This document shows positions 44,903 to 62,694 of a stretch of 64,000 nt of DNA, one piece after another. A model generated the notes under the pieces. It was given only the letters and a program-made list of their open reading frames with translations, was not told where the DNA came from and did not search any database. Source of the stretch: Thermoanaerobacter pseudethanolicus ATCC 33223. GTDB lineage: Bacteria > Bacillota > Thermoanaerobacteria > Thermoanaerobacterales > Thermoanaerobacteraceae. Position numbers and translations under genes: made by a program. How positions within the stretch are numbered: the first letter of the stretch is position 1; each line of letters opens with the position of its first letter. The DNA lies in assembly GCF_000019085.1 (NCBI RefSeq), contig NC_010321.1:186001-250000 (forward strand). The letters run 5' to 3'.

Positions 44903-44930
44903 GGGTAAAACCTTTCGGTTTTACCCTTAT
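44901..44930. terminator. Bidirectional terminator between the NlpC/P60 gene and adhE
   Basis: AAGGGTAAAACC (44901-44912) pairs with GGTTTTACCCTT (44917-44928). It overlaps both stop codons. Confidence 0.9.
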
Positions 44931-47545
44931 TCTCCATAGGCTTTTCTGTAAATTTCTGCAATTTCGGATACCAATGGCATTCTTGGATTTGAGCCAGTGC
45001 ACTGGTCATTAAAGGCTATATCCGACATTTCCATTATTTGTTTTTCGAATTCTTCTTTATTTATGCCTGCTTCTTTAAGTGTCAAAGGAAGATTAAGTTC
45101 TTTCATGAGATTTTTTATCGCTTCAATGAGGCTTTGTACTCCTTCTTCAACGGTTGATGCAGGAAGTCCTAACATTTTTGCAATTTCTGCATATTTTTCG
45201 GCTGCTTTTGGATATTCATATTGCGGGAATGCTGCAAATTTCTTGGGGAGTTCTGCATTGTATTCTATGACATAGGGCAGAAGTATTGCATTTGCTCTTC
45301 CGTGTGGAAGATGGAATTTAGCACCAAGTATATGAGCCATACTATGGTTTATTCCTAAAAATGCATTTGTGAAGGCCATTCCAGCTATGCATGAAGCATT
45401 GTGCATCTTTTCGCGGGCGACTTTATCTTGCCCGTTTTTGTATGCTTTAGGTAGATATTCAAATATCAATTTTATAGCTTTTTCTGCGAGAGCGTCTGTA
45501 TAGTCTGATGCCATTACAGATACATAGGCTTCAATAGCATGGGTTAAAGCGTCCATACCAGTGTCTGCTGTGACAGAGGGTGGTATTGTCATTGTGAGGT
45601 CAGGGTCTATTATAGCGATATCTGGTGTTAATTCGTAATCTGTGAGAGGGTACTTTATATTTTTCTTTTTGTCTGTTATAACTGCAAAGGCAGTAACTTC
45701 AGAACCTGTACCGCTGGTGGTTGGTATTGCGATAAATAAAGCTTTTTTCCCCAGTTCAGGAAATCTATAAGTTCTTTTTCTTATGTCCATAAATTTTAAC
45801 CTTAAGTCTTCGAATTTTGTATCAGGGTATTCGTAGAAAAGCCACATTCCCTTCGCTGCATCTATTGCAGAACCACCACCTACAGCTATTAGTAAGTCAG
45901 GCTCAAACCCTCTCATTATTTTTACCCCTTTTTCTACAGTGTCAACTGAAGGATCTGGTTCAACTTCAGAGAATATTTCATATTTAATATTTGCCTTATC
46001 TAATTGATACGTTACTTTATCTACAAAACCTAATTTAACCATCACAGGGTCTGTTACAATAAAGGCTTTTTTGCCTTTTACTTGTGACAGATATTGTAAT
46101 GACCCTCTTTCAAAATAAATTTGTGGTGGAACTCTGAACCATTTCATTCTCTCTTTTCTTATAAAAACTCGTTTTATGTTTATAAGGTTATAAACACTTA
46201 CATTATCTGTTGTTGAATTTCTACCCATTGTACCGCAACCCAAAGTCAAAGATGGGATAGCCGTGTTATAAATATCTCCAATAGCTCCTTGAGAAGCAGG
46301 GGCGTTTACAAGAATTCTTCCTGCTCGTACTCTTTTTGCAAATTCATTAATAATTTGTTGGTTTTCAGAATGTATTACTGCAGAGTGACCAAGTCCGCCG
46401 AATTCTGTCATATCTTCACATCTTTTTATGCCTTCGTTGTAATCTTTGACTGTGTATAAAGCAAGTATTGGACTTAGCTTTTCTCTGGAGAGAGGATATT
46501 CTGGTCCTACAGCAGGATATTCAGCTACAAGTATTTTTGTGTTTTCAGGTACTTTAAATCCAGCCATTTCAGCAATTTTTGTTGCCGGTTGACCTACAAC
46601 TGCTGGATTCATTAAACCGGTGTTTTTGTCTATAGCGAATTCTTCTAGCATTTTAGTCTCTTCTTTATTGAGAAAATAGCAACCATATTCTTTCATTAAT
46701 TTTTTCACTTCATCTGCTATTTCTTCGTCTATTATCACAGCTTGTTCTGATGCGCATACTGTGCCATTGTCAAAAGTTTTGCTAAGTATTAGGTCTGAGA
46801 CTGCTCTTTTAATATTTGCAGTTTTTTCAATGTAGCAGGGGACATTGCCAGGACCTACGCCAAGGGCGGGTTTTCCTGAGCTGTAAGCAGCTTTTACCAT
46901 TCCGGCGCCGCCTGTTGCTAGGATAAGAGATATATCGGGATGTGTCATGAGAAGTTGTGTTGCTTCAATTGAGGGTGTCTCAATCCATCCTATACATCCT
47001 TCTGGTGCACCAGCCTTTAATGCTGCCTCGTACATCGTCTTTGCTGCTTCTATACTACATTTTAATGCTTTTGGGTGGAAGCTGAAAATTATTGGATTTC
47101 TTGTTTTGATAGCAATGAGGCATTTGAACATTGTTGTAGAAGTCGGGTTTGTGACAGGTGTTACGCCGGCTATAACTCCTACAGGTTCTGCCACTTCCAT
47201 ATAATTTTCTTCTAAGTTTTCTTTGAGGATGCCGACAGTTTTTTTGTCTTTTATATAATTGTACACATATTCTACTGCAAAAAGGTTTTTGGTTATTTTG
47301 TCTTCATAAACCCCCATTTTCGTCTCTTCATGAGCTAATTTTGCCAGTTCTACATGCTTTTCTATGCCTGCTAGTGCCATGGCTTTGACTATTTCATTAA
47401 TTTGCTCTTGGGTGTATGACATGAATTTTTCTTGTGCTCTTTTCGCTCTTTCTACTAATAGGTCTATCTGCTTTTTAACATCTGTTGTTTCTTTTACTTC
47501 TGTTTTTTCTTTTGTTTCCTTTTTTTCTTGTAATAAGGTAGGCAT
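44927..47545 (-). CDS. adhE: Bifunctional acetaldehyde-CoA/alcohol dehydrogenase
   Basis: Reduces acetyl-CoA to acetaldehyde and then ethanol, the main ethanol route in Thermoanaerobacter. The 872-residue fusion has an N-terminal aldehyde dehydrogenase (about 25-445, catalytic Cys in NGTVCASEQAV), a linker with a second glycine-rich NAD site, and a C-terminal iron-dependent alcohol dehydrogenase (about 465-870) with GGGSAIDAAKGMW, DALTHAIEAYVS and the metal ligands in FLGINHSMAHILGAKFHLPHG. A charged Glu/Lys/Thr-rich stretch precedes the first domain. ATG 47545 follows GGAGGT. Its leader has two Rex-type operators. Confidence 0.97.
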   Translation of the reverse strand: MPTLLQEKKETKEKTEVKETTDVKKQIDLLVERAKRAQEKFMSYTQEQINEIVKAMALAGIEKHVELAKLAHEETKMGVYEDKITKNLFAVEYVYNYIKDKKTVGILKENLEENYMEVAEPVGVIAGVTPVTNPTSTTMFKCLIAIKTRNPIIFSFHPKALKCSIEAAKTMYEAALKAGAPEGCIGWIETPSIEATQLLMTHPDISLILATGGAGMVKAAYSSGKPALGVGPGNVPCYIEKTANIKRAVSDLILSKTFDNGTVCASEQAVIIDEEIADEVKKLMKEYGCYFLNKEETKMLEEFAIDKNTGLMNPAVVGQPATKIAEMAGFKVPENTKILVAEYPAVGPEYPLSREKLSPILALYTVKDYNEGIKRCEDMTEFGGLGHSAVIHSENQQIINEFAKRVRAGRILVNAPASQGAIGDIYNTAIPSLTLGCGTMGRNSTTDNVSVYNLINIKRVFIRKERMKWFRVPPQIYFERGSLQYLSQVKGKKAFIVTDPVMVKLGFVDKVTYQLDKANIKYEIFSEVEPDPSVDTVEKGVKIMRGFEPDLLIAVGGGSAIDAAKGMWLFYEYPDTKFEDLRLKFMDIRKRTYRFPELGKKALFIAIPTTSGTGSEVTAFAVITDKKKNIKYPLTDYELTPDIAIIDPDLTMTIPPSVTADTGMDALTHAIEAYVSVMASDYTDALAEKAIKLIFEYLPKAYKNGQDKVAREKMHNASCIAGMAFTNAFLGINHSMAHILGAKFHLPHGRANAILLPYVIEYNAELPKKFAAFPQYEYPKAAEKYAEIAKMLGLPASTVEEGVQSLIEAIKNLMKELNLPLTLKEAGINKEEFEKQIMEMSDIAFNDQCTGSNPRMPLVSEIAEIYRKAYGE

Positions 47546-47559
47546 AAGAACACCTCCAT

Positions 47560-47577
47560 GTGTTAATAATTTAACAA
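47560..47577. promoter_or_regulatory. Rex-type operator 2 (adhE leader)
   Basis: GTGTTAATAATTTAACAA matches the Rex consensus TTGTTAA-N4-TTAACAA at all but the first base. It lies just ahead of the adhE ribosome binding site. Confidence 0.7.
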
Positions 47578-47678
47578 AATATTTTATTTAAATAAAGAGA
47601 TTGTCAGATGATTCTAAAAAATTTCAGGGTATATTACACAAATTTTAGGCATCAACGATATTTTGTGCAATATTTCAA

Positions 47679-47696
47679 TTGTTATTCATTTAACAA
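47679..47696. promoter_or_regulatory. Rex-type operator 1 (adhE promoter)
   Basis: TTGTTATTCATTTAACAA, a palindrome TTGTTA-N6-TAACAA fitting the redox (NADH/NAD+) repressor Rex. It is 15 bases downstream of the -10 box, near the predicted transcript start. Confidence 0.8.
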
Positions 47697-47711
47697 TCTC
47701 TTTACACTTTG

Positions 47712-47740
47712 ATAGTACAACAACGATTGAATCTTGTCAA
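47712..47740 (-). promoter_or_regulatory. Sigma-A promoter of adhE
   Basis: On the minus strand: TTGACA (plus 47735-47740), a 17-nt spacer, TACTAT (plus 47712-47717). It implies a leader of about 160 nt. AAAGAGATTGT (47594-47604) and ACAATCTCTTT (47693-47703) could pair within that leader. Confidence 0.75.
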
Positions 47741-47851
47741 TAGAGTTAAAATAGCCTGAAACGATTACTCAAAAAATTTTACAATATTTTTTCTTTTCAT
47801 ATTGTGTTATAATTAATTTACCAGTTTTTATAGATTCAAGGAGATGAGACT

Positions 47852-48322
47852 GTGCTATATAAAAAATTTATCTCTCCTGTTGGTGTTCTCACTATTTTTT
47901 CATCAGGAAAAGGTATATGCCGCATTGACTTTGAAAATGAGAAATCTTCATTAGAAGGTTTTAAAGAAGGCAGCGATTTTTATATTGAAGAGTGTATTAG
48001 GCAGCTTGACCTATATTTTCAAAAGAAATTAAAAAATTTTGACGTGCGGTTGGATTTGCAAGGTACAGAGTTTCAGAAGGCCGTGTGGAAGGAGATTTTA
48101 AAAATTCCTTATGGTGAAGTTAAGACATATGGAGAGATTGCGAGATTAATTGGAAAGCCAAAGGCGGCAAGAGCAGTAGGGCAGGCTCTTAATAAGAATC
48201 CTATTCCCATTATTATCCCTTGCCACAGAGTCATTGGAAGCAGTGAAGATTTGACAGGCTTTGGCGGGGGAATTGAAATAAAAAAATTTTTATTAAGACA
48301 TGAAGGAGTAGAGGTTCATTAA
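47852..48322 (+). CDS. ogt: Methylated-DNA--protein-cysteine methyltransferase
   Basis: Suicide repair protein that takes the methyl group from O6-methylguanine. The 156-residue protein has the active-site PCHRVIGSS with the acceptor Cys, the helix-turn-helix region FQKAVWKEILKIPYGEVKTYGEIA and AARAVGQALNKNP. GTG 47852 follows AAGGAGATGAGA. It is divergent from adhE. Family assignment is certain. Confidence 0.96.
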   Translation: MLYKKFISPVGVLTIFSSGKGICRIDFENEKSSLEGFKEGSDFYIEECIRQLDLYFQKKLKNFDVRLDLQGTEFQKAVWKEILKIPYGEVKTYGEIARLIGKPKAARAVGQALNKNPIPIIIPCHRVIGSSEDLTGFGGGIEIKKFLLRHEGVEVH

Positions 48323-62529: not shown

Positions 62530-62694
62530 GATAATCCTCCTTCTTCTTTTATTTAATAGTTGTTTATTTACTTCGATGATGTTATCAAGTGTTAATGGTG
62601 TAAAAATGTTAAGAAAATAACTATTTTTTGTTATTTTTTTACCAAGAGTTTACTGGCCGATGTGTCATATAAAAAAACCAGTGTATTTAGCCTT

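Follow-up and report, generated by a model that had tools for sequence, protein, structure and literature searches.

The locus lies in a 64,000-nucleotide stretch of Thermoanaerobacter pseudethanolicus DNA, here called the window, and consists of adhE, its promoter, and the leader between them, all on the minus strand. This gene is of practical interest as a main ethanol gene of thermophiles under biofuel study. The features used in the analysis are listed below in the order in which they would be transcribed, with P1 denoting a stem predicted to form within the leader RNA.

47735..47740, minus strand: -35 hexamer, TTGACA, read from the sequence
47712..47717, minus strand: -10 hexamer, TACTAT, read from the sequence
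47705..47707, minus strand: predicted transcription start, G47705 or G47707, placed by its distance from the -10 box
47686..47704, minus strand: 5' arm of P1, overlapping operator 1 (from the repeat, the predicted folds and covariation)
47696-47679, minus strand: Rex operator 1, TTGTTAAATGAATAACAA, a perfect TTGTTAN6TAACAA
47612..47685, minus strand: sequence-variable domain that P1 would enclose, with inter-genus similarity at the shuffled level
47593..47611, minus strand: 3' arm of P1 (from the repeat, the predicted folds and covariation), with ACAATC invariant in 14 of 14 leaders
47577-47560, minus strand: Rex operator 2, TTGTTAAATTATTAACAC, with one mismatch, at a conserved position
47551..47557, minus strand: ribosome binding site, GGAGGTG, outside P1 in the predicted folds
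44927..47545, minus strand: adhE, an open reading frame for a bifunctional aldehyde/alcohol dehydrogenase of 872 aa with Pfam Aldedh and Fe-ADH domains

The minus strand thus reads TTGACA, 17 bp, TACTAT (47740-47735 and 47717-47712, respectively), 15 bp, operator 1, operator 2, GGAGGTG and ATG. The promoter matches at 10 of 12 positions, in keeping with its description as near-consensus in the first-pass annotation, and the arrangement TTGACA-17-TA...T is present in all 14 of the distinct adhE leaders described below. The same annotation had put the first Rex site 15 bases beyond the -10 box, which agrees with our count, and also at the start point itself, which needs amendment: operator 1 falls just downstream of the predicted start, at approximately +10 to +27. 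The promoter assignment can be compared with published work on T. saccharolyticum, in which an insertion of AT, located 184 bp before adhE, was reported in 38% and 20% of reads from two adapted delta-rex strains, the two insertion-bearing strains being those with the largest drop in adhE expression (available portion of PMC5886521). In four leaders of the T. saccharolyticum genus, the spacer between the -35 and -10 hexamers occupies -188 to -172 (L010: -187 to -171), meaning that an insertion at -184 falls inside the spacer and would lengthen it from 17 to 19 bp. Hence the published insertion supports the promoter identified here. The gene divergent from adhE at 47852-48322 in the window, its neighbour, encodes 6-O-methylguanine DNA methyltransferase.

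The two operators differ in how far their sequences alone distinguish them from background. The first-pass annotation had proposed a genome-wide motif scan as a check on its sites; over the 2,362,816 bases of the single contig, this singled out operator 1 as the sole perfect TTGTTAN6TAACAA, but did not set apart the near-matches, as the 25 places with at most one mismatch were fewer than the 38 found with a reversed control pattern. A lone one-mismatch site therefore means little, and a loose scan of the window allowing three mismatches stood at chance level, with 18 matches against 19.1 expected. Operator 2 is instead made credible by its distance of 119 bp from operator 1, combined with its conservation. 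At the genome density of such sites, the probability of a second site with at most one mismatch within 200 bp either side is approximately 0.004. Earlier statements that both sites match the Rex consensus, that they are about 120 bp apart, and that the second adjoins the ribosome binding site (47577-47560 versus 47551-47557) all stand, with operator 1 matching perfectly and operator 2 at all positions but one.

The regulator is also encoded in this genome, which has one Rex_N match, in a protein of 227 aa. This aligns with PDB 3WG9 over residues 5-227 (E 2.1e-144) and differs very little from the T. ethanolicus Rex whose crystal structure is available (3WG9/3WGI), with no difference of kind seen between the two proteins. 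The excerpted text of PMC8836258 gives 3WGI, which has the same listed sequence as 3WG9, as the ternary complex of T. ethanolicus Rex, and describes Rex as a homodimer with one operator DNA per dimer. In T. saccharolyticum, deletion of rex raises adhE expression, and Rex sites are predicted at -150 and -31 of adhE (Table 5 and accessible text of PMC5886521, which also cites in vitro Rex work in T. ethanolicus). These are the same two predicted sites as in the window, and the T. saccharolyticum operator 1 is letter-identical to that found here. Hence the twin-operator reading is not new, as the pair has already been printed as a prediction for that gene. In the present genome, an operator motif lies at the promoter, a rex gene is present, and the sites are conserved in relatives. 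Twin predicted Rex operators before adhE are consequently well supported, by the motif together with its conservation, the one rex gene in the genome, and the published data from the sister genus.

Conservation was assessed in an order-level sample of 24 genomes, 18 of which contained an adhE match. The operator pair was found at a separation of 118-121 bp in 15 of those 18 loci, corresponding to 14 distinct leaders, as L020 is identical to L003; six belong to the window's genus, and eight to that of T. saccharolyticum. Both the pair and the promoter were present at 15 of the 16 adhE loci of these two genera. Neither Rex sites nor P1 were found upstream of the adhE of G019 (L019), a genome of one of the two genera in which AdhE is 55% identical. 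The remaining two loci are from the next family: L016 carries a pair of 2-mismatch sites separated by 99 bp, and in L017 one site with a single mismatch is near the start and another, with two mismatches, overlies the -35 box. In two genomes, the leader is retained although adhE is apparently broken, being represented by two partial matches in G005 (L018/L020), and containing seven in-frame stops within the match in G011 (L007). A cut-off second adhE promoter, with operator 1 and the first leader bases, occurs on another contig of T. saccharolyticum NTOU1 (L133:278-397); this copy diverges shortly after operator 1.

The leader contains a further symmetry beyond that of the operators. The 11-bp inverted repeat that the first-pass annotation located at 47594-47604/47693-47703 is exact, and is the core of a longer repeat of 19 nt (47593-47611/47686-47704). 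Of its 19 positions, 18 can pair in RNA when G-U is included. The 5' arm, which includes half of operator 1, starts within approximately 1-5 nt of the predicted mRNA start; one nucleotide would be left unpaired before P1 if transcription starts at G47705, and three if it starts at G47707. The predicted fold of the leader has an energy of -38.2 kcal/mol (z -4.87), with none of 200 shuffles folding as low. All 14 distinct leaders are predicted to form P1 at 65 °C, and 13 of them also at 37 °C, the exception being L007. Applied to the alignment of whole leaders, RNAalifold returned P1, one 3-bp hairpin and nothing else; the hairpin, which involves the Shine-Dalgarno sequence, was rejected as too weak.

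The pairing of the arms was compared with that in shifted registers. Among the 13 distinct rows of the arm alignment, 98.5% of 130 cells are paired, compared with 38-53% when the arms are slid by 1-3 columns. Two of the ten pairs have changed on both sides, one from G-C to A-U, and the other from A-U to U-A or U-G. Two of five covariation measures nevertheless failed against shuffles (both-side changes, 466/500; further pair types, 498/500), and as only two genera were sampled, these compensatory changes may represent just two events. The invariant portion of the 5' arm, moreover, is equally explained by operator 1. At 37 °C, shuffled leaders reached the observed pairing in 0-2 of 1000 cases for the six from the window's genus, and in 6-47 of 1000 for the eight from the other genus; at 65 °C the range was 0-15 per 1000 for all 14. 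Taken as structure predictions, these results make it fairly likely that a conserved P1 stem exists at the 5' end of the adhE mRNA. The first-pass annotation recorded the inverted repeat but no RNA stem. The repeat may encode a conserved stem that starts close to the predicted 5' end of the mRNA and takes half of operator 1 into one of its arms, and this is possibly new: no description of an adhE leader stem was found among the matches listed in the open-licence literature. The available portion of the T. saccharolyticum Rex account (PMC5886521) contains no leader RNA structure, whereas here the operator pair and the stem are found together across two genera.

The distribution of P1 appears narrow. 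A covariance model of the leader (R1) recovered the 15 adhE leaders from 37 genomes of the class, with three further matches: the cut-off copy L133, and two weak ones, L132 (E 0.005) and L134 (E 0.044). L135 and L136 were also weak matches in R1 searches. Across 398 genomes of the phylum, searched under tighter filtering at the cost of weak matches, seven matches came from two of 266 genera, both of them the genera already known. In the window's own genome, the next matches after the adhE leader had E values of 0.61 and 8.5. Outside the two genera, L016 lacked P1, and the long-range 5' pairing predicted for L017 at 37 °C was weaker and disappeared at 65 °C.

One explanation is that the locus contains nothing more than an ordinary pair of Rex repressor sites, and that the RNA pairing is incidental and without function. 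We consider this somewhat unlikely, though it has clear points in its favour. Twin Rex-like sites before adhE are indeed ordinary: in up to 400 bases upstream of 80 further adhE loci, at least one was found at 56, compared with 2.6 in shuffles, and at least two at 32, compared with none in 50 shuffle rounds. The pairing in leaders of the T. saccharolyticum genus is also only moderately unlikely at 37 °C, judging from the 6-47 per 1000 shuffles that reach it. Yet the 3' arm of P1 overlaps no operator, is conserved although the remainder of the loop varies, and has changed in step with the 5' arm. Furthermore, P1-like pairing was scored at 38 Rex-type sites in the adhE loci L022-L101, among them the T. 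saccharolyticum locus L022. None of the 37 other sites passed 2/200 shuffles (L066 reached 5/200, and L034 7/200), and the idea that Rex operators generally give rise to P1 was rejected, although this test says little, because the known positive L022 itself scored 10/200. The pairing energy of L022 was the strongest of the 38 sites, at -14.5, with the next at -11.6. Four leaders at other Rex-like sites of the window's own genome were folded and had no long-range 5' stem at 65 °C; the L103 leader keeps a local hairpin at that temperature.

The stem might alternatively close a regulatory RNA switch, in the form of a riboswitch-like or attenuator leader. A 158-163 nt leader whose closing stem is conserved and whose loop keeps its length would suit such an element, but the two genera share no core in the domain that P1 would enclose, no terminator is predicted, and the ribosome binding site lies outside P1, making a switch of this kind very unlikely. 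Membership of a known structured RNA family was also rejected: the leader itself matched nothing in Rfam 15 up to an E value of 5, and the sole match in 47300-48000 lay outside the leader, at a chance-level score of 12.7 of 37 bits. The same applied to a terminator or attenuator in the adhE leader, as none was predicted, and leaders of the T. saccharolyticum genus have no U tract after the P1 3' arm.

The lengths within the leader are more constant than its sequence. In all 14 leaders, the P1 loop measures 88-90 nt, counted from the 10-bp P1 core, and 16-17 nt separate this core from operator 2. Neither the loop nor the stretch between P1 and operator 2 is more alike between genera than shuffles are. 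For comparison, gaps between adjacent orthologous genes of G000 and G013 were taken from two 60-kb pieces, giving 22 gaps of 60-300 nt, with the ATP synthase anchor excluded because it had no match in the window's own genome. The median difference in these control gaps was 14 nt, and only two of the 22 differed by 2 nt or less. The comparison suggests, modestly, that the leader lengths are under constraint; the suggestion can only be modest, because control gaps also vary with gene ends.

Looping of the DNA between the two operators by Rex is favoured by the constant spacing of 118-121 bp in 14 of 14 distinct leaders, set against the more variable control gaps. We nonetheless regard looping as highly doubtful. 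Rex is described as a homodimer on one operator in the excerpted text of PMC8836258, 118-121 bp corresponds, at 10.5 bp per turn, to 11.2-11.5 helical turns, and other adhE loci have many spacings, from 24 to 329 bp. Since Rex is homodimeric, a block at the start site combined with a roadblock is the simpler arrangement. The single 118-bp spacing among the 80 further adhE loci is that of T. saccharolyticum itself (L022). In several of the further loci, two Rex-like sites are often 62 bp or 66-68 bp apart (L028, L033, L034, L057; L026, L029, L036, L042, L050, L066), and in L028 they apparently bracket the promoter.

The reading we prefer, with a probability of approximately 0.5, is that operator 1 doubles as an arm of a 5'-terminal stem that protects the mRNA, in addition to block and roadblock of transcription by Rex. 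Firstly, NAD+-bound Rex on operator 1 would block initiation or promoter escape. Secondly, NAD+-bound Rex on operator 2, at approximately +129 to +146, would act as a roadblock to any polymerase that had escaped, or alternatively by contact at a distance. The positions fit a roadblock; no paper on a Rex roadblock at an operator with NADH was found in the open-licence literature. Thirdly, a high NADH/NAD+ ratio would release Rex from both operators, such that adhE is made. Fourthly, in the resulting transcript, the first 20 or so nucleotides, including the left half of operator 1, would pair with approximately +95 to +113 to form P1, hiding the 5' end (with perhaps 1-5 nt unpaired) while leaving the ribosome binding site outside. 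The likeliest job of P1 in the cell would then be to shield the message from decay starting at its 5' end. The RppH of B. subtilis requires a minimum of two unpaired 5' nucleotides, with a preference for three or more, according to the available part of PMC3997798, which also cites the 5' stabilising stems of ompA in Escherichia coli and the aprE leader in B. subtilis. P1 as predicted would resemble these stems in beginning a few nucleotides from the 5' end and leaving the ribosome binding site free. It would be unlike them in being long-range, and in having one arm that is also a repressor operator, and its possible stabilising effect is suggested by analogy.

A more elaborate version, which we think quite unlikely, would have operator 2 and P1 act together as a coincidence device. 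The footprint of a polymerase halted by Rex on operator 2, at +129, would place its active site near +111. The halted polymerase would therefore still cover the 3' arm of P1 (+95 to +113), leaving the 5' end bare and prone to decay. Removal of Rex by NADH would let the arm emerge, whereupon P1 would close and the message become stable. Such a device predicts that the distance from the P1 core to operator 2 should be kept without its sequence being kept, as is seen in the 16-17 nt stretch.

If the preferred reading of a shared operator and protective stem is true, edits to the operator intended for derepression would also alter the 5' structure of the mRNA. Hence the resulting changes in expression might be wrongly attributed solely to lost Rex binding. 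The locus would likewise provide a clear case of one DNA stretch selected both as a repressor site and as an RNA structure.

Rex-like sites also occur in intergenic positions elsewhere in the genome, before genes for a class V aminotransferase, a DHODB-type protein and a NuoE-type [2Fe-2S] protein. The site in the window is at 62628-62645 (TTGTTATTTTTTTACCAA, one mismatch), before a gene with DHODB-type Fe-S and NAD-binding domains; by our reading this gene is NfnA-like, and it is a possible further Rex target. The others, before the class V aminotransferase and NuoE-type [2Fe-2S] genes, are at L103:1501-1518 and L140:1028-1045, respectively. A class V aminotransferase is named among new Rex targets in the abstract of PMC6391272.
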